A stretch of 64,000 nucleotides of DNA. Origin: Salinispora fenicalii (GTDB taxonomy: Bacteria > Actinomycetota > Actinomycetes > Mycobacteriales > Micromonosporaceae). Position numbers and translations under genes: made by a program. The notes below the pieces were generated by a model that was not told the origin of the DNA, ran no database searches, and saw only the letters and a program-made list of their open reading frames with translations. How positions within the stretch are numbered: the stretch's first letter is position 1; each line of letters begins with the position of its first letter. Location: positions 1 through 64,000 of the forward strand of contig NZ_AZWQ01000031.1 in the NCBI RefSeq assembly GCF_000514815.1, read 5' to 3'. Below, one piece after another: positions 1-6,625 of this stretch.

Positions 1-398
1 CCGAAGGGCTACCGAAGGTCGACCTCTACTCGCAGGTGGCGGTCGCCACCGGGTCGCGGCTGGTCTTCCTCGCCGGCCAGGTCGCCGTCGACGCCGACGG
101 GAACACGGTTGGCGTGGGCGACCTCGCTGCCCAGGTCGAGCAGTGCTACCTCAACGTCGCCACCGCCCTGGCCGAGGTCGGCGGCTCCTTCGATGATGTG
201 GCGAAGTTGACCGTGTACGTCGTCGACTGGACGCCCGACAAGATGGCGCTCCTGGGAGAGGGGATCGCGCGGGCGGCGGCGAAGCTGGGCGTCACCCTGG
301 CCGCCCCGTTGACAGGCCTGGGCATCAGCGCGCTCGCCGGCCCCGACCTGCTGGTCGAGGTCGAGGCCACGGCGGTCCTCGACGCAGTGTCACGTTGA
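1..398 (+). CDS. RidA/YjgF-family protein, 5' truncated by window edge
   Basis: The reading frame is open from the first base (EGLPKVDLYSQ precedes the first internal GTG at 36) and ends with TGA at 396-398, so the gene begins upstream. The visible protein is about 131 residues, nearly the whole family length. It shows the RidA pattern: an N-terminal EGLPK..YSQ segment, LAGQVAVDADG, a central VAKLTVYVVD strand and a C-terminal LVEVEATAVL strand. RidA proteins form trimers and hydrolyse reactive enamine/imine intermediates in the cytosol, but actinobacterial paralogues differ in substrate. The C-terminal active-site Arg of archetypal RidA (IEVEA.A motif region) cannot be confirmed, so only the family is assigned. 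A 15-bp hairpin follows at 427. Confidence 0.85.
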   Translation, partial: EGLPKVDLYSQVAVATGSRLVFLAGQVAVDADGNTVGVGDLAAQVEQCYLNVATALAEVGGSFDDVAKLTVYVVDWTPDKMALLGEGIARAAAKLGVTLAAPLTGLGISALAGPDLLVEVEATAVLDAVSR

Positions 399-426
399 GT
401 TAGCCGAGGCCGGCGTGGCGCGGGTC

Positions 427-467
427 GATGTTCCCTGGGCGTGGCCCTGGCCCGCCCAGGGAACATC
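427..467. terminator. bidirectional hairpin terminator between convergent genes
   Basis: A perfect 15-bp inverted repeat (gatgttccctgggcg / cgcccagggaacatc) with an 11-nt loop lies between the RidA-like gene (+) and the DHFR-like gene (-, stop at 473). Its position suits termination in both directions; no long U tract is present, as is common in high-GC actinobacteria. Confidence 0.7.
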
Positions 468-472
468 ACAGC

Positions 473-1015
473 TCAGCGCAGGATCCGAAATCGCAGGTGG
501 GTCGCCTGGGGCGTATCGATCGCACCGATGTTCTCCAACCGCAGGGCGGTGGCGTCGAACAGCTTGATCCCGTCGTCGATCACCATGGGCCGTACCGCCA
601 GCCGGATCTCGTCGACGAGCCCCGCAGCCAGGCACTGCTGGGCGAGCTGGGCGCCGCCGCCGATGATGACCTCGCGCTCTCCCGCGGCGACCTGGGCGCG
701 GCCCACCGCCTCGGCCACGTCCGGGATGAAGTGGAAGACGGTGTCCCCTTTGGCCACCTGCTCCGGTGTGCTGTGCGAGACGACGAAGTGCTCGACCAGG
801 AACGGGTTGTCCACGAACCCGTCCTGGCTGGCGCCCTGGTCGTAGGTGCGTCGCCCCATCACCATCGCGCCCATGCTGCGCTGCAGCTCCTCGACGATCG
901 CCTGGCTCTCCGGCGAGGGGGCGAAGAACCAGTCATGCAGCCCTTCGGGCCCGCCGTCCGGCCCGGCAATGCAGCCATTTACCGACATCGTCATATCTAG
1001 CACTACTTTTCCCAT
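473..1015 (-). CDS. dihydrofolate reductase family / RibD C-terminal domain protein
   Basis: This 180-residue protein begins MGKVVLDMTMSVNGCIAGP, the typical N-terminus of the actinobacterial RibD_C/DHFR-like family, followed by GRRTYDQG, VVSH, a VIIGGGAQLAQQ nucleotide-binding turn and a DEIRLAVRPM..D strand. Such proteins are stand-alone NADPH-binding reductases whose substrates are mostly unknown; they are distinct from FolA. ATG at 1015 is chosen over an upstream in-frame ATG at 1075 because the family motif starts here and a GGTGGGGG stretch precedes it. It is a single gene, convergent with the RidA-like gene. Confidence 0.85.
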   Translation of the reverse strand: MGKVVLDMTMSVNGCIAGPDGGPEGLHDWFFAPSPESQAIVEELQRSMGAMVMGRRTYDQGASQDGFVDNPFLVEHFVVSHSTPEQVAKGDTVFHFIPDVAEAVGRAQVAAGEREVIIGGGAQLAQQCLAAGLVDEIRLAVRPMVIDDGIKLFDATALRLENIGAIDTPQATHLRFRILR

Positions 1016-1255
1016 GGCACCCCCACCGGTTGCTGGCATCCTGTTTCGCGAGCCGGGAATAGCGCCCCTGCCCACCTCTCCGGGTGCCGAGGTGTCATGA
1101 GCGCAAGCGGCTCGCCTCCGCCGATGTCATCATCACGCACCGACATTCCGGCGCCCCGTCGACTCACCGGCGTACCCCACCGTGGGCATCGGCGTGGACC
1201 ACGCCCCACTGATCTACCAAGATCAAATACCGGGACTGCCTGAACTCGCCATGGT

Positions 1256-1288
1256 GAGGCCCGGGGATATGTCCAATCCCCGGGCCTC
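1256..1288. terminator. 12-bp hairpin, probable terminator of the tRNA-like RNA transcript
   Basis: Perfect 12-bp inverted repeat gaggcccgggga / tccccgggcctc with a 9-nt loop. It lies about 60 nt beyond the last tRNA-like module on the minus strand, so it probably ends that transcript. Between 1016 and 1255 I see no gene or other recognisable element. Confidence 0.65.
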
Positions 1289-1346
1289 GGTTTGCCACCG
1301 ATTTTTGCACACCGACACTTTTAAGAATGCAGATCATTCGTTACGA

Positions 1347-1416
1347 CATCAGGTTTTACCGTTAAACTATCGCCGCATGTTGGAGCGGCGAGCTGGACTT
1401 GAACCAGCATCCGACG
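1347..1416 (-). ncRNA. permuted tRNA-like module B
   Basis: In minus-strand order: candidate anticodon-stem 3' strand CGTCGG (1416-1411), T arm GCTGG-TTCAAGT-CCAGC (1408-1392), acceptor 3' strand TCGCCGC (1391-1385), 8-nt linker TCCAACAT (1384-1377), acceptor 5' strand GCGGCGA (1376-1370), TA, D arm GTTT-AACGGTA-AAAC (1367-1353), then CTGATG (1352-1347). The acceptor strands are perfectly complementary over 7 bp and the D and T stems are perfect. CTGATG pairs with CGTCGG over 6 bp with two G-U pairs. The D loop has the conserved GG and the T loop the TTC.A pattern. A standard tRNA search would miss this because the halves are in inverted order. Confidence 0.65.
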
Positions 1417-1489
1417 ATCAGCGTCCACATTCGTTCGACCCGGTGTTCAGTGGCGAATACTGAAGTTGGAGCGATAATCTGAGATTGAC

Positions 1490-1566
1490 CGTGGCTGCCT
1501 CTGCCAGTTGGGCTACCCCGACCCGAGAAGTGCCGGGGGCAGGGATCGAACCTGCACTGGACCGCG
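1490..1566 (-). ncRNA. permuted tRNA-like module A
   Basis: In minus-strand order: candidate anticodon-stem 3' strand CGCGGT (1566-1561), 5-nt variable region CCAGT, T arm GCAGG-TTCGATC-CCTGC (1555-1539), acceptor 3' strand CCCCGGC (1538-1532), a 9-nt linker beginning with A (1531-1523), acceptor 5' strand GTCGGGG (1522-1516), TA at tRNA positions 8-9, D arm GCCC-loop with GG-AGGC (1513-1497), then GCCACG (1495-1490). The acceptor strands pair over 7 bp with one G-U. The anticodon-stem strands pair over 6 bp with one A-C mismatch and one G-U. The T loop matches TTCRANY. The two halves of a tRNA are therefore present in reversed order, joined through what would be the CCA end. Confidence 0.65.
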
Positions 1567-1642
1567 TTCGTCAGTTTAAGCTTCAGCTTCAGCTTTGCGC
1601 CCTTGGCGCACCCCTGCGCTCCCACAGGGGAACCTATGACGG

Positions 1643-2374
1643 CTACCCGAACAGGTAGTCAAAGACCGCTGCGCCTACCCGCTTTTCAACGGCCTCGGTA
1701 TTGTTGGCCTCCTCCCGCGCGAACTTGACCGCTGCTTGCAGCGCCACGACGCGGTCGAGGATTTCGTTGACCCGCTTGGCTGGCAGGGCTCCGGAGAATT
1801 TCACCGTCGTCCAGTAACCGACGGCCACATCCTCGTAGTAGACCTCAACCTGGGCCGGGTGCTTCTCCGTGGCCTCGGCCTTCACGTGGTTGCGCGGAAC
1901 TTTCTTAGTCCGAATGGTACGTACCGACTCGGTCCGCCAACTGTCGGTGGACTCGTCACGTACCCACGACTCAGCAGCGTCCAGGACTGGCAGCTTCTTG
2001 ACGAAGGTGTGCAAGTCGACCAGCTGCTTCTCAAGAAACAGCAAGTATGTGACTGGTACGCCGCTGGCTACGGTCTGACCGTCGACCACGATGTCGGCGT
2101 GCGCCACACAGTTGGTCCAGTCCTTGGTGGCCGTAACGTCAAGAAGGCGTGTGAGCGTTGTCGAGACCTGCCGCAGGATGTCCTCGGCCTTGATCTGCAC
2201 CCGCGTCGACTCGGCCGGCAGTTGCTCGCCTTCCTCGTCCTTGGGCTGGTAGGTGCGCGAGATGCCTGCCAACGGAGCGGTCTTCTGCAGGGCATGGTGT
2301 GCCTCAGTCCAGTCCGCGAACGACTTGCTCTTGACGCCCTTTTCGACCGCGATTATCTGGTTAAGCCTCGGCAC
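1643..2374 (-). CDS. conserved protein of unknown function (243 aa) upstream of the tRNA-like RNA
   Basis: The start is GTG at 2374, preceded by AGGAG at good spacing; upstream ATG codons at 2425 lack such a site. The protein (PRLNQIIAVEKGVKSKS...) is soluble, highly charged and without signal peptide or membrane segments. It contains a basic stretch around residues 150-165 (RTKKVPRNHVKAEA) followed by strands VEVYYEDVAVGYWTTVKFSG and a C-terminal helical part ending FDYLFG. I have seen closely similar proteins as widespread hypotheticals in actinomycetes but know no assigned function. Its stop codon lies 13 nt from the first hairpin of the permuted tRNA-like RNA, which suggests a protein-RNA unit; this is inference from position only. 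Confidence 0.85.
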   Translation of the reverse strand: MPRLNQIIAVEKGVKSKSFADWTEAHHALQKTAPLAGISRTYQPKDEEGEQLPAESTRVQIKAEDILRQVSTTLTRLLDVTATKDWTNCVAHADIVVDGQTVASGVPVTYLLFLEKQLVDLHTFVKKLPVLDAAESWVRDESTDSWRTESVRTIRTKKVPRNHVKAEATEKHPAQVEVYYEDVAVGYWTTVKFSGALPAKRVNEILDRVVALQAAVKFAREEANNTEAVEKRVGAAVFDYLFG

Positions 2375-2569
2375 AATTTCTCCTATCGACCAGCGGTACG
2401 TTAGCACCCCTGCCCACTGTGGCAAACATCAGCGTGACGCGGGCGGATGGAATCCCCTCGCGACGCCCGCTGGCCGGCCGAAGACGGTTGACTATCAGCC
2501 CGGACCTCTGGTGGTCCATCATGGCCGGTGACGTCGGCGAGGAGTAAGCCCGACGCGGTCCTGCCGTGA

Positions 2570-3607
2570 CTAAGGGGCGACCACGCTGAGGTGGGTCGGG
2601 GGTAGCCAGAGGGAGGTGCCGTCGCCGGGGCGCAGCGGTGCTGCCGGCCCGGTGGTGAGGTGCAGGGTGACTCCGCCGCTGGTGGCCTGGATGTCGAGGT
2701 GGGTGCCCCGGTCGGTGACGGCGGTGATGGTCGCCGGCACCACATTGTCCCCCTGCTGGTCCCCGACCACGATGGCTTCCGGGCGGATGAGGAGCAGGCC
2801 TGCTCCGCGGTGGTCGGTGTCGAGGCGGAGGCGGCCGAGGGGGCAGTCGAAGTGGCCGGGGGAAGCGGTGCCGGGGATGGCATTGCCGGCGCCGCCCAGG
2901 AATCGGGCGACAGCCAGGGTCGTGGGCCGGCGAAACAGGTCGGCGGGTGGGGCGTGCTGCGCGACCCGGCCGTCGAGAAGCACGGTGACCGTGTCGGCCA
3001 CGTCGGTGGCCTCGTCGCGGTCGTGGGTGACGAAGAGGGTGGTGCTGCCCTCCCGCCGGTGCAGCTCGGTGAGGAGTGCCCGCATGTCGCCGCGTAGCTG
3101 CGGGTCGAGGGCGCTGAACGGCTCGTCGAGCAGCAGGACCCCGGGGCGGACGGCCAGGGCGCGGGCGAGGGCGATGCGTTGCTGCTGGCCGCCGGAGAGT
3201 TCGCTGCTGCGCCGCTCGCCGTAGCCCGGTAGCGCGACGGCGTCGAGCAGCTCGGCGACCCGCCGCCGGATGGCAGCGCGGTCGGTGCCGCGCATGCGCA
3301 GCCCGAAGGCGACGTTCTCGGCCACGGTGAGGTGCGGGAAGAGCAGCGGGCGTTGAAAGACGACGCCGAGGTCGCGCCGGTGCGGGGGCTGGCGCAGGAC
3401 ACTGTGGCCGGCGACCCGGACGTCGCCGCCGGTGGGGGCGCTCAGCCCGGCGACGATCGACAGGAGGGTGGACTTGCCGCTGCCGGAGGGCCCGAGGACG
3501 GCGGTACGGGTGCCCGCCGGCACCTCCAGGCTGACCCGGCGCAGCGTCGGCGTGGTCGCGCCGGGGTAGGTGTGGTCCAGGTCGGCGATGGTGATGTCGG
3601 TGGTCAT
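2570..3607 (-). CDS. ABC transporter ATP-binding protein (YnjD-like)
   Basis: This 345-residue cytosolic ATPase has Walker A GPSGSGKS (39-46), a Q loop in VVFQRPLLFP, signature LSGGQ (137-141), Walker B VLLLDEP (157-163) and switch His195 in VTHDRDEA. A C-terminal TOBE-like regulatory domain follows from about residue 235. It energises import through the two permeases encoded immediately upstream. Its ATG at 3607 overlaps the permease stop (ATGA), so translation is coupled, and it is the last gene of the seven-gene operon. The substrate is unknown: the binding protein belongs to the YnjB family, whose ligand is not established to my knowledge. About 195 bp with no recognised element separates it from the gene at 2374. 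Confidence 0.9.
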   Translation of the reverse strand: MTTDITIADLDHTYPGATTPTLRRVSLEVPAGTRTAVLGPSGSGKSTLLSIVAGLSAPTGGDVRVAGHSVLRQPPHRRDLGVVFQRPLLFPHLTVAENVAFGLRMRGTDRAAIRRRVAELLDAVALPGYGERRSSELSGGQQQRIALARALAVRPGVLLLDEPFSALDPQLRGDMRALLTELHRREGSTTLFVTHDRDEATDVADTVTVLLDGRVAQHAPPADLFRRPTTLAVARFLGGAGNAIPGTASPGHFDCPLGRLRLDTDHRGAGLLLIRPEAIVVGDQQGDNVVPATITAVTDRGTHLDIQATSGGVTLHLTTGPAAPLRPGDGTSLWLPPTHLSVVAP

Positions 3608-4542
3608 CGGCCGACTCCGAGCAAGGCGGTGTCGCGGCCGGCGAGTTGCCGGGCGGCGAGGGCGGTCAGCAGCAGGGGCGGGGCGACGGCGACCAGCGCG
3701 ATGGCGGCGGTGGCGGCCTGGTTGCCGCTGCCGGCGGCGGTGGCGAAGAGCAGCAGCGGCACCGTGGTGACGACGCCACCACCGATGAGCAGGGTCAACA
3801 GATAGTCGCTCCAGGAGATGAGGAAGGCGAACATGGCGGCGACGACCAGACCGCCACGCAGCTGGGGGAGGCTGACCTCGCGGAACGCCCGCCACGCCCC
3901 GGCGCCGAGGGTGCGGGCCTGCCGTTCCAGAGCCGGGTCGACGCCGGCCCACACCCCGGACATCAGCAGTGTGGCGTACGCGGTGGCGGCGGGTAGCTGG
4001 GCCAGGACCACGCCGGCGAGCGAGTCGGCGAGCCCGGCGCGCAGGTAGACGATCTGCGCGCCCATGGCGACGGCGAACGGGGGTACCAGCACCGGGGCGA
4101 GCAGAACCAGCTCGATCAGCCGTCTCCCCGGCAGCCGGTGCCAGGCCAACGCGCGCCCGGCGGCGGCCCCGAGGACGGTGGCGAGGGCGGCGACGGCGGC
4201 ACCGATGCTGATGGAGGTGGCGACGGCCTCGGCGAGGCGGGACTGTGGGCCGAGCGCCTGCTCCCAGCCGACCAGCGACCAGCGAGCCGGCCACAGGTCG
4301 GGGTAGAACCATTGGTCGGTGAAGGCCTGTACTGCCAGCGGCAGCAGCGGCCCCGCCACCCAGAGGCCGGTGAGGATCAGTACCGTGGGGCGGGCCAACG
4401 CCGCGCCGAGCGGCCGCCGGGGCCGCCCCGCTCCCTGAACCAGCTGCGCTCCCGCCACCGGCCCCGCTTCCTGCACCGCTCCCCGCCCCGGTCGCGCTTC
4501 CCGTACTGGCCGGGATCCCGTCGCCGGCCCCGCTTCCGTCAT
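3604..4542 (-). CDS. ABC transporter permease, second subunit (YnjC C-terminal half equivalent)
   Basis: The 312-residue membrane protein has a Pro/Arg/Gly-rich N-terminal tail of about 45 residues, then about six hydrophobic segments and a permease EAA-type loop near ERQARTLGAGAWRAFREVSLP. ATG at 4542 overlaps the upstream permease stop (ATGA), and its own stop overlaps the ATPase start. Together with the other permease it would form the transmembrane channel of the importer. E. coli YnjC is, as I recall, a single fused permease; here the two halves are separate genes. An in-frame upstream extension to 4935 is antisense/overlap shadow inside the preceding permease. Confidence 0.85.
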   Translation of the reverse strand: MTEAGPATGSRPVREARPGRGAVQEAGPVAGAQLVQGAGRPRRPLGAALARPTVLILTGLWVAGPLLPLAVQAFTDQWFYPDLWPARWSLVGWEQALGPQSRLAEAVATSISIGAAVAALATVLGAAAGRALAWHRLPGRRLIELVLLAPVLVPPFAVAMGAQIVYLRAGLADSLAGVVLAQLPAATAYATLLMSGVWAGVDPALERQARTLGAGAWRAFREVSLPQLRGGLVVAAMFAFLISWSDYLLTLLIGGGVVTTVPLLLFATAAGSGNQAATAAIALVAVAPPLLLTALAARQLAGRDTALLGVGR

Positions 4543-5396
4543 CGCCGCGCTCCCGTCACCCGGCCGACGGCACGCCGGCTGGCCCCGGTGTACGCGAGCG
4601 CCGCCGCGACGGCGATGACCGCGATCAGCAGGGCGACGGCGACGCCCTCGGCCCGGCCGGAGAGTTCGGCGGCGGTGAACCGCTGGTAGGCCAGGACCGG
4701 TAGCGGCTGCGGGTAGGCGCGGCCGAGCAGGGCGGGCACCTCGTACGCGCCGAGGGTGAAGGCGAAGATCAGCACCGCCACGGCCAGGATCGACGGGGCG
4801 AGCAGGGGCAGGGTCACGTGCCGCAGCACCTGCCGGGGGCGGGCGCCGAGGGTGGCGGCGACCCGTTCGTGCTCGGCTACCGGACCGCCGAGCGCGGCGA
4901 GGACGACGATCAGCACGAACGGCGCCTCCTTCCACACGTACTCGGCGATCACGGCGACCGCGTGCGGGTCGGCGACCAGGGCGGGCAGCGCGACGCCGAC
5001 GGTACGGGCGGCGCGGGCCAGCAGGCCGGAGTCGGCCAGCAGCAGCCCGATCGCGACCGCGCCGATCAGGTGCGGCACCGGCAGCCCGAGCTGGGCCAGG
5101 AAGGTGGCCGTGCGTCGGCCCGCGGCTGTGCGGCGCAGGGCCAGGGCGGCGGCGACACCGAGGGCGACGGCGAGCCCGGTGGCGACGGTGGAGATCCAGA
5201 GGCTCAGCAGCAGTCCGTCGGTGAACGCCGGACCGTCGGTCACCCGCTGGTAGGCGGCCAGGCCGACCGGCGTGTCGGTGAACCCGGCCAGGCCGAGGCT
5301 CTGGGCGAACCCGTAGCCGAGGCCGCCGCCGAAGAGCAGCACCACGGTGGCCAGCGCCGGCAGGATCAGCAGGAGCCCGGTGCGGCGGTGGTTCAC
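4539..5396 (-). CDS. ABC transporter permease, first subunit (YnjC-like)
   Basis: This 285-residue integral membrane protein begins at GTG 5396 (VNHRRTGLLLILPAL), overlapping the TGA of the substrate-binding gene (GTGA). It has about six transmembrane segments, and the binding-protein-dependent permease loop lies near HERVAATLGARPRQVLRHVTLP (split here: HERVAATLGA, then RPRQVLRHVTLP). It pairs with the next permease and the ATPase at 2570. The reported longer frame to 5444 would overlap the upstream gene by 52 nt and lacks a ribosome-binding site, so the GTG is preferred. Confidence 0.87.
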   Translation of the reverse strand: MNHRRTGLLLILPALATVVLLFGGGLGYGFAQSLGLAGFTDTPVGLAAYQRVTDGPAFTDGLLLSLWISTVATGLAVALGVAAALALRRTAAGRRTATFLAQLGLPVPHLIGAVAIGLLLADSGLLARAARTVGVALPALVADPHAVAVIAEYVWKEAPFVLIVVLAALGGPVAEHERVAATLGARPRQVLRHVTLPLLAPSILAVAVLIFAFTLGAYEVPALLGRAYPQPLPVLAYQRFTAAELSGRAEGVAVALLIAVIAVAAALAYTGASRRAVGRVTGARR

Positions 5397-6625
5397 TGTT
5401 GCAGTACCTCGCGTCGCCAGCCCTCCTCCAACGGCGGCAGCCACTGCGCCCGTAGCTCCGGTTGGCTGTTACGCGACAGCTGGTCGTAGCTTGGCACCTG
5501 AGCCGAGGTGGGCAGGGCGGCGAAGCGGTCCCGCCACTCGACGTCGAGCTTGTCGAGGTTCACGGCCGGGTACTGGCCCCACCCGTCGGGGCGGGCCTTC
5601 TCGTACTGCAACTCGGGGGAGAGCATCAGGTCGGCCAGGGCGAGGGCGGCGGAGCGGTTGGCGGCGTTGGCCGGTACGGCGAGATAGTTGGTGTTGCCGA
5701 TGGTGCCCTCGTCCAGCAGCAGGGTACGGGTGGTGGCCGGGAACTGTCCCCGTTCGACCAGGCTGGTGACCTGCGCCGGCCCGTACGTCATGGTGAAGTC
5801 GACCTGCCCGTTGGCGTACAGGTCGTTGAGCTCCTTCTCGTTGGCCGGGTACGTCTCACCCGCACGCCACAGGGCGGGCCGCAGCTCGCGCAGGGTCTGC
5901 CACAGCGGCGGGGTGAGCCGGTCGTAGGCGGCCTGGTCGAAGTCGTCCGGGATCTGGTCGACCCCGCCGGCCTGGTGGTAGAGGGCATGCCGGACGAAGA
6001 CCGAGCCGGTGAAGTCCGGCGGGGCGGGGTAGGTGAACCGGCCTGGGTGGGCGCGGATCCAGTCCAGCAGCCCGGCGACGCTGGTCGGCGGGTCGCTGAC
6101 CCGCGCGGAGTCGTAGCTGAACGCGAACTGGGCGCGGCTCCACGGCACCTCGCACCCCTCGACCGGGGTGCCGAAGTCGTTGGCGACCGTCGGCTCGGAC
6201 CAGTCGACGTAGCGCATGTTCGGCAACAGCTCGACCAGCCCGCACTGCCACAGCCCGGCCTGCTTGCCGGTGCGGAAGTTCTCCCCGTTGATCCACACCA
6301 GATCCACCGATCCGCCTGAGCCGCGGCCGGCCTGCTTCTCGCCGAGGACCTTGTTGACTGCCAGGGCGGTGTCGGTGATCGGTACCCGGTTGATCCGGAC
6401 GTCGAGCCGTTCGCGGGCGGCCGGGGCGACGACCTCGTCGACATAGCGGTTGGCGCCGTCGTCGCCGCCGTACATGAAGAGGTTGACCGTCTGCCCGCGG
6501 GCCTCCTGCAGCACCTGGGCGAAGTCGCGGGGGGCGGGGTCGACGTCGCCGGTGCCGGCGGTGCAGCCGGCGGCGAGCAGGCCGGCGGCGGTCAGCGTCG
6601 CCACCGCGCGCCATCGTCGGTTCAT
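5393..6625 (-). CDS. YnjB-like ABC transporter substrate-binding lipoprotein
   Basis: This 410-residue extracytoplasmic lipoprotein has a short signal peptide with lipobox LAAGC (Cys21). The mature part contains FMYGGDDGANRYVD, ITDTALAVNKVLGEK and DLVWINGENFRTGK; the last is characteristic of the YnjB family. It would capture the solute for the permeases and ATPase encoded downstream. The ATG at 6625 overlaps the stop of the phosphatidyltransferase gene (ATGA). The ligand is not known. In E. coli, ynjBCD lies in a cluster with TVP38/TMEM64-like (ydjX, ydjZ) and CDP-alcohol phosphatidyltransferase (ynjF) genes, matching this operon. Confidence 0.87.
   Translation of the reverse strand: MNRRWRAVATLTAAGLLAAGCTAGTGDVDPAPRDFAQVLQEARGQTVNLFMYGGDDGANRYVDEVVAPAARERLDVRINRVPITDTALAVNKVLGEKQAGRGSGGSVDLVWINGENFRTGKQAGLWQCGLVELLPNMRYVDWSEPTVANDFGTPVEGCEVPWSRAQFAFSYDSARVSDPPTSVAGLLDWIRAHPGRFTYPAPPDFTGSVFVRHALYHQAGGVDQIPDDFDQAAYDRLTPPLWQTLRELRPALWRAGETYPANEKELNDLYANGQVDFTMTYGPAQVTSLVERGQFPATTRTLLLDEGTIGNTNYLAVPANAANRSAALALADLMLSPELQYEKARPDGWGQYPAVNLDKLDVEWRDRFAALPTSAQVPSYDQLSRNSQPELRAQWLPPLEEGWRREVLQQ

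Follow-up and report, generated by a model that had tools for sequence, protein, structure and literature searches.

Two stretches that resemble transfer RNA, each with its parts in permuted order, lie in tandem on the minus strand near the start of a 64,000-nucleotide piece (which we call the window) of a Salinispora fenicalii contig. What could such a pair be doing behind a protein gene? The initial annotation, made from the letters alone, had described the modules and left the gene aside as unrelated to them. Reading of the sequence and a mechanical scan both recover the two modules complete. Beyond what had been seen then, the modules sit inside a larger RNA, with hairpins at the 5′ end, a covarying core and a hairpin at the 3′ end. 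The view of the gene has to be revised, since it encodes a protein of the DUF7873 family that is the steady partner of the RNA across relatives. The reading that we favor, and to which we give a probability of about 0.58, is that a trans-acting RNA and DUF7873 would make up a ribonucleoprotein that uses tRNA mimicry on a factor handling tRNAs.

In the window, the RNA lies 3′ of the DUF7873 gene, on the same strand, and the gap between them is 10 nt (Table 1). The acceptor stems that had been described, of 7 bp each and with one G-U pair in module A, are both present. The same goes for the two additional helices, CTGATG/CGTCGG and GCCACG/CGCGGT, and each of their strands prefers its own partner over the swapped one. 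The T loops TTCGATC and TTCAAGT and the GG of the D loop, which had been singled out as kept, are seen as TTCRANN and GG in both modules of the relatives, where these motifs form part of our scan rule. Outside the modules, the core stretches CTTAAACG and ATCGACCG are conserved among relatives, as is the loop of the 3′ hairpin (TGGACAT in the window, GGATAT in several phages). The GAGC motif of the 5′ hairpins occurs in 73 of 76 tested sequences when 31 are expected, a count uncorrected for kinship and from which 27 of the 103 regions described below are left out. A pseudoknot between this GAGC and a CGCTC located between the modules is possible. A consensus promoter scan of the region found no site, the terminator-like site found there is on the strand opposite to the RNA, and ARAGORN called no tRNA at the locus.

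Table 1. Features of the RNA locus and its companion gene, in the direction of the minus strand.
Feature	Position	Strand	Parts and remarks	Basis
DUF7873 protein gene	1643-2374	minus	243 aa, GTG as start codon; regularly accompanies the RNA	PF25283, E 4e-115
Whole structured RNA, ~377 nt	1632-1256	minus	ends inferred from alignment	26-sequence consensus
5′ double hairpin with GAGC motif	1630-1611 and 1609-1597	minus		helices 1 and 2 of 26-sequence consensus
Basal stem of module A	1566-1561 with 1495-1490	minus	CGCGGT with GCCACG	per-sequence own-partner test
Module A, permuted tRNA-like	1555-1497	minus	T arm 1555-1539 (GCAGG-TTCGATC-CCTGC), 3′ acceptor 1538-1532, 9-nt linker, 5′ acceptor 1522-1516 (7 bp, one G-U), TA, D arm 1513-1497	mechanical module scan; acceptor covariation (33 sequences)
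Outer core helix	1454-1449 with 1299-1294	minus	GCCACT with GGTGGC	helix 8; both-side changes 3/6
Core helix CACCGG	1445-1440 with 1315-1310	minus		both-side changes 5/6 (30-sequence), 3/6 (26-sequence, helix 9)
Core helix beneath module B	1432-1424 with 1333-1325	minus		helix 11; both sides changed in 7/9 pairs
Basal stem of module B	1417-1412 with 1352-1347	minus	CGTCGG with CTGATG	helix 12 of 26-sequence consensus; own-partner test
Module B, permuted tRNA-like	1408-1353	minus	T arm 1408-1392 (GCTGG-TTCAAGT-CCAGC), 3′ acceptor 1391-1385, 8-nt linker, 5′ acceptor 1376-1370 (7 bp), TA, D arm 1367-1353	mechanical module scan; acceptor covariation (30 sequences)
3′ hairpin	1288-1256	minus	conserved GGNNA-type loop	helix 16; both-side changes 9/11

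How general is this arrangement? We gathered the best 80 of at least 567 bacterial relatives of DUF7873, 12 loci from IMG/VR, 10 annotated phage or plasmid loci and the window itself, and applied a fixed rule for permuted modules to the 103 regions that follow DUF7873 (two pairs are identical, which leaves 101 distinct regions). At least one module was present in 99 regions, with two modules in 72 and one in 27. The same rule gave modules in 1 of the 103 reverse complements, in 12 of 5150 shuffles by two-base blocks (which preserve the dinucleotide content only approximately) and in 6 of 1932 flanking tiles of 600 nt. The shuffles and the flanking tiles thus rule out a chance origin of the modules. 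A looser scanner identified modules in all 8 regions given to it, in none of the 8 reverse complements and in 19 of 1600 shuffles. The four regions lacking a module under the fixed rule include three of Herpetosiphon, where the RNA is located elsewhere in the genome, and one of a Microcoleus phage.

Homologous loci were aligned in search of compensatory changes, as the initial annotation had suggested, and the helices do covary. In the alignment of the whole RNA (26 sequences), 52 of the 89 pairs have changed on both sides and 97.9% of the cells are paired, for consensus structures that derive from the same alignments used to count covariation; none of 500 shuffles reaches the observed covariation, and slid partners are paired in 39.5-46.2% of cases. 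The core alignment, which covers module B and the helices beneath it in 30 sequences, has both-side changes in 31 of 37 pairs and 96.6% of its cells paired, a level found in 0 of 500 shuffles and to be compared with 38-45% for slid partners. Related sequences inflate such counts of covariation, and the slid controls retain this relatedness. When column pairs are ranked by covariation (396 columns, 72 sequences with two modules), the top 16 all correspond to base pairs in the model, and from the 17th place down base pairs are mixed with non-pairs, which we attribute to kinship. All seven acceptor pairs show both-side changes in module A (33 sequences) and in module B (30 sequences); because only sequences satisfying the module rule were aligned, pairing within the modules was partly preselected, while pairing in the core and in the terminal helices was not. 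The D stem of module A is invariant among the aligned sequences and hence uninformative. The basal stem of module B has both-side changes in 3 of 5 pairs and 92.2% of its cells paired. That of module A is absent from the RNAalifold consensus; in the comparison of own with swapped partners, the pairing run was 5.94 versus 4.85 ± 0.10 for module A and 5.35 versus 4.57 for module B. These results support the conclusion that the two permuted modules are real and under selection for pairing, and we have hardly any doubt that the RNA as a whole is real and conserved.

The two modules differ in the end that they present. In the 72 sequences carrying both, the first acceptor position of module A is a G in 70 copies, the discriminator is an A in 67, and a CCA follows in register in 34, while its third acceptor pair is C-G in 49, G-C in 21, T-G in 1 and G-T in 1. 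The discriminator of module B is G or T in all 72 copies, followed by CT in 67 and by CCA in 5, and its acceptor opens with T1-A72 in 24. Acceptor letters vary freely in both modules, which argues against any use requiring charging. As far as these letters can tell, the signal of the modules is likely to be their shape and not charging, and module A is likely to be the better candidate for enzymes that sense the end of a tRNA. In a looser test, the motif of module A is missing from 23 of the 103 regions. Seven of these are L098, L101, L102, L103 and the regions of Herpetosiphon. For 13 of the other 16, we read the minimum-energy fold as a simple hairpin capping the same basal stem; the exceptions are L041, L053 and L115. 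The basal stem of module A is retained in most loci without the module. Judged from sequence and predicted folds, module A is an optional appendage that a plain hairpin can replace. As for module B, its stems seem to be retained in L109 and L110, downstream of DUF7873, but the T loop has changed (to TGCAGCT in L109), which makes a naturally occurring variant mimic.

If the RNA and DUF7873 function together, they should be found in the same genomes. The retrieval of loci started from the protein, which makes their linkage partly one of design; only searches with R1, a covariance model of the RNA core that we used independently of the protein, test the RNA alone. Among 396 genomes of Actinomycetota, the 7 with DUF7873 are the 7 with an R1 match of at least 68 bits, and in all of them the core lies 202-295 nt downstream of the gene on the same strand. 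The other R1 matches listed for this set have at most 52 bits. Among 200 genomes of Micromonosporaceae, DUF7873 was found in 93, the RNA core in 93 and both in 92, when the line for the core is drawn at E 5e-9, a value set after seeing the data (the next genome lacking DUF7873 has E 1e-7). One genome (G461, locus L147, 2588-3049) has an intact-looking core of 113 bits, upstream of which only the last 34 positions of the DUF7873 profile are left, and another (G458) has a fragment of DUF7873 (profile positions 39-176) and no strong RNA match. Since 20 relatives of the window's own genus, Salinispora, have no DUF7873 match, the copy in the window is patchy within the genus. In the three genomes of Herpetosiphon, a member of the Chloroflexota, the RNA (97 bits) is outside the DUF7873 loci, and both are kept. 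They are 123 kb apart on the same contig in one genome, on two contigs and at least 70 kb apart in the second, and on two contigs, each near a contig end, in the third. This co-occurrence in spite of separation argues for a shared function over mere adjacency.

The companion protein itself gives few hints on its role. Apart from the clusters of its own gene, the most widespread cluster of ORFs in its neighborhood recurs in 13 of 80 loci and 5 genera, in flanks of 5 kb where ORFs were chosen by length alone and real genes may be missed. The AlphaFold model (22 sequences; mean pLDDT 87.5, pTM 0.70) is fairly confident and shows helices together with an extended ribbon of two strands (151-166, 175-194) around the conserved stretch KKVPRNHVKAEATEKHPAQVE. 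The protein is not basic overall (pI 6.4); our guess is that the conserved basic stretch on the ribbon could be a putative contact with RNA. Searches with the predicted fold gave no match with E below 0.001 in the PDB or BFVD and matched no known RNA-binding fold. A phage protein from BFVD (A0A7M1RW91) reached a probability of 0.99, but with E 0.035 and 13.6 Å rmsd, and a similarity to TolC (VIA-align Z 7.3, 12.1 Å rmsd) was set aside as a resemblance between long helices. At the sequence level, the best E value was 1.6 against solved structures and 0.054 against PHROGs, and NCBIfam gave no match.

The pair is also found in phages. A tblastn search identified DUF7873 in 73 phage records, and for 13 of these we examined the neighborhood of the gene (Mimi, Phendrix, Keelan, NiceHouse, Ronaldo, PA-SR01, K479, My-WqHQDG, TM39, Y1_11, KpLz-2_45, D505 and Pam2). 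In each of the 13, the fixed rule or the looser scanner finds one or more permuted modules 3′ of DUF7873, and tRNA genes are annotated in 9 of the 13 stretches. The phages with the pair infect Gordonia, Arthrobacter, Rhodococcus, Rhizobium, Vibrio, Klebsiella and cyanobacteria. R1 matches the RNA over its full length in Keelan and Ronaldo and partially in PA-SR01 (44 bits) and My-WqHQDG (31 bits), both at levels that tandem tRNAs can reach as well, and it has no match in K479. Hence, the RNAs of these last three phages are distant, and their assignment relies on the modules alone. In the Microcoleus phage My-WqHQDG (L103), DUF7873 is separated by a HEARO RNA and an ORF from the likely RNA, which is probably some 2 kb further on. 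This HEARO RNA (129 bits, 3950-4159) and its neighboring ORF look as if they had been inserted, and around 5760-5860 of the same locus an unusually long module linker holds what appear to be nested tRNA-like arms. The tRNA cluster of the Gordonia phage Phendrix (L097, 1075-1603) includes a tmRNA match of 89 bits (cut-off 47) that is unlisted in the annotation.

How should the resemblance to Y RNAs, raised by the initial annotation, be interpreted? YrlA RNAs are described as having 90-150 nt and one tRNA-like domain, a permuted module that binds PNPase while the stem binds Rsr (PMC8394870). When Rfam was searched as had been proposed, YrlA (RF02553) was the best match to both modules, with 25.8 bits (E 0.028) and 25.6 bits (E 0.033), and across the RNAs linked to DUF7873 its matches range from 25.6 to 37.1 bits, the highest in a Gordonia phage; the gathering cut-off is 69. 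Y RNA candidates beside TROVE genes of Micromonosporaceae score 34.9-41.5 bits, also below 69, and hence the YrlA cut-off alone is not decisive. One could thus see the RNA as a YrlA-type Y RNA with a doubled module, acting as a tRNA-mimicking gate and tether for Ro60/Rsr. The shared permuted module speaks for this, as does the overlap between genomes with DUF7873 and those with TROVE, which exceeds expectation (41 have both; odds ratio 3.4, uncorrected for kinship). Yet for the six candidates adjacent to TROVE, the match to R1 is confined to the surroundings of the module and has 40-47 bits, whereas in 28 of 32 loci of the DUF7873-linked RNA it extends along the entire model, with 60.7-141.1 bits (the exceptions are L101, L102, L103 and L112). 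Furthermore, the window's genome has no TROVE (Ro60) protein at E 1, and 52 of the 93 genomes with DUF7873 have no TROVE match at E 1e-5. We therefore find it rather unlikely that this is a Y RNA with two modules. The RNA is in part YrlA-like, by virtue of its tRNA mimic, but its partner is DUF7873 and not a TROVE protein. The order of parts, which the initial annotation had likened to that of a permuted tRNA and of the YrlA module, has stood; the RNA is not a permuted tRNA gene, and classing it with the YrlA Y RNAs is not supported. Concerning the Y RNAs themselves, the candidates within 1 kb of TROVE (L153-L158) suggest that the Rfam YrlA model may miss some in actinobacteria; L158 overlaps a tRNA call of ARAGORN. 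The seven other loci with YrlA matches that we fetched from the window's genome fall in ordinary tRNA arrays (L001, L002, L003, L007 and L008, on contig C2) or beside two tRNAs (L005), except for one (L006, C37:175406-175513; 20.7 bits, E 0.178) around which no tRNA is called.

Other explanations do not involve Y RNAs at all. The phages might have used the pair as a counter-measure, the RNA serving as a decoy for a defense enzyme or toxin directed at tRNAs and DUF7873 as its helper, with bacteria keeping both later on. The presence of the pair in phages of seven host groups, frequently beside tRNA genes, fits this idea, and the tRNA-like domain of YrlA has itself been proposed to act as a competitive inhibitor (PMC7790460). 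On the other hand, the modules have no anticodon loop, which makes decoys for anticodon nucleases unlikely, and the retention of DUF7873 by 93 of 200 Micromonosporaceae also counts against the idea; we regard the decoy as unlikely, if conceivable. The RNA might instead act in cis, as a folded 3′ part of the DUF7873 message whose tRNA-like contacts protect this message or regulate it. In favor of this, its start is often 10-40 nt past the stop codon of DUF7873 and the promoter scan came back empty, but the RNA lies elsewhere in the genome in Herpetosiphon, is separated from the gene by HEARO and an ORF in the Microcoleus phage (though the match there is weak, at 31 bits) and persists in G461 next to a mere remnant of DUF7873. 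A cis element is accordingly quite unlikely. The order of the parts, together with the G1, discriminator A and frequent CCA of module A, could also point to a precursor of a permuted tRNA or tmRNA, in which cuts in the linker would free real tRNA ends to be charged and used in translation. This would be very improbable: a stem leading into the rest of the RNA replaces the anticodon arm, the acceptor letters vary freely, which also led us to reject a permuted tRNA gene, the third acceptor pair does not hold a fixed Ala-type G3-U70 (G-T is found there in 1 of 72 copies of module A and 2 of 72 of module B), and module B often begins with T1-A72 and lacks CCA in 67 of 72. At last, tandem genes for tRNA-Asn do match YrlA and R1 weakly, as an array of ordinary tRNAs in decay might. 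The initial annotation had named such an array, or a lack of helix conservation, as the outcomes that would speak against it. The strong covariation inside and outside the modules excludes a decayed array, ARAGORN finds no tRNA at the locus, and we give this explanation practically no credence. The tandem genes have an interest of their own: the four weak R1 matches that we fetched from other genomes were tandem tRNA-Asn genes, and the pairs of such genes in L148-L151 score 38-41 bits against YrlA. A permuted module can thus be imitated by a tandem of like tRNAs, which is a trap of false positives for searches of permuted tRNAs.

We return to the ribonucleoprotein that we favor. In this model, a stable, structured RNA of ~380 nt would be transcribed from its own gene and act in trans. 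It folds into a core of stacked helices bearing one or two modules and ends in a hairpin with a conserved loop, and each module holds acceptor, T and D arms atop a stem placed where a tRNA has its anticodon stem. The RNA would work with DUF7873, produced from the adjacent gene upstream, most likely as a ribonucleoprotein; that the two form such a particle is, on comparative grounds, probable. The modules would most likely be tRNA mimics that bring the particle to a tRNA-handling factor or occupy this factor, and RNase P, a 3′ exonuclease such as PNPase, a tRNA-modifying enzyme and EF-Tu are candidates for it. The pair is present in phages, frequently in the company of tRNA genes, and has been retained by a number of bacterial lineages, presumably to their benefit.

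Many soil bacteria and phages of very different kinds share this gene pair, so the RNA seems to belong to a class not reported before. Within Rfam 15, no family reaches its cut-off inside the RNA, for the window and the relatives' loci that were searched. Limited searches of the literature gave no report that we recognized as describing the RNA, such that an earlier mention is possible, and no paper with the word DUF7873. We see even odds that it is the founding member of a class of phage and bacterial ribonucleoproteins, which would combine one large RNA, two unlike tRNA mimics (A with A73 and often CCA, B with a conserved non-CCA end) and a protein family of unknown fold. Such particles might act on tRNA handling or translation, possibly after a nick in the acceptor linker giving module A a true tRNA-like end. 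Few families are known to imitate tRNAs, namely tmRNA, Y RNAs, T boxes and the tRNA-like ends of viruses, and the locus adds to them a conserved structured RNA with a companion protein. It also ties DUF7873, so far without a function, to RNA biology. The lineages with two, one or altered modules could serve as a natural series for probing mimicry.

Comparison with known systems helps to place the RNA. Like YrlA, it has a T arm, a 3′ acceptor strand, a loop, a 5′ acceptor strand and a D arm on a stem; unlike YrlA, it has ~380 nt, a core that covaries and either one module or two, and it is partnered by DUF7873 instead of Rsr. Circularly permuted tRNA genes, described in red and green algae and in Thermofilum, have their halves reversed around a short intervening sequence (PMC3978253). 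The halves of our modules are in this same order, also with a short intervening sequence, but whereas permuted tRNA genes give working tRNAs through circularization and cutting, the modules have no anticodon arm and rest on stems of a larger RNA. The tmRNA genes of certain bacteria are permuted as well and are processed to two RNAs (PMC10085705). Our RNA differs from these in having no match above cut-off and no fixed Ala identity pair; the sole permuted-tmRNA hit, at 31.9 bits (cut-off 47), is in the cyanophage PA-SR01 (Pseudanabaena; L101, 5763-5942), 2 kb from DUF7873. A further parallel is provided by GOLLD and ROOL, large structured RNAs of phages and prophages whose function is unknown and which are often near tRNA islands; for ROOL, no protein partner is reported (PMC12286853). 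Their Rfam models have no match in positions 1-6000 of the window up to E 10, nor in the loci of relatives (E limits 0.5, 1 and 0.05). For GOLLD and ROOL it is an open question what leads phages to maintain large RNAs in the midst of tRNA genes, and the present RNA may offer a handle on it. Like them, it is a large structured RNA that phages carry, often among tRNA genes; unlike them, it has a different size and fold and comes with a steady companion gene, DUF7873.
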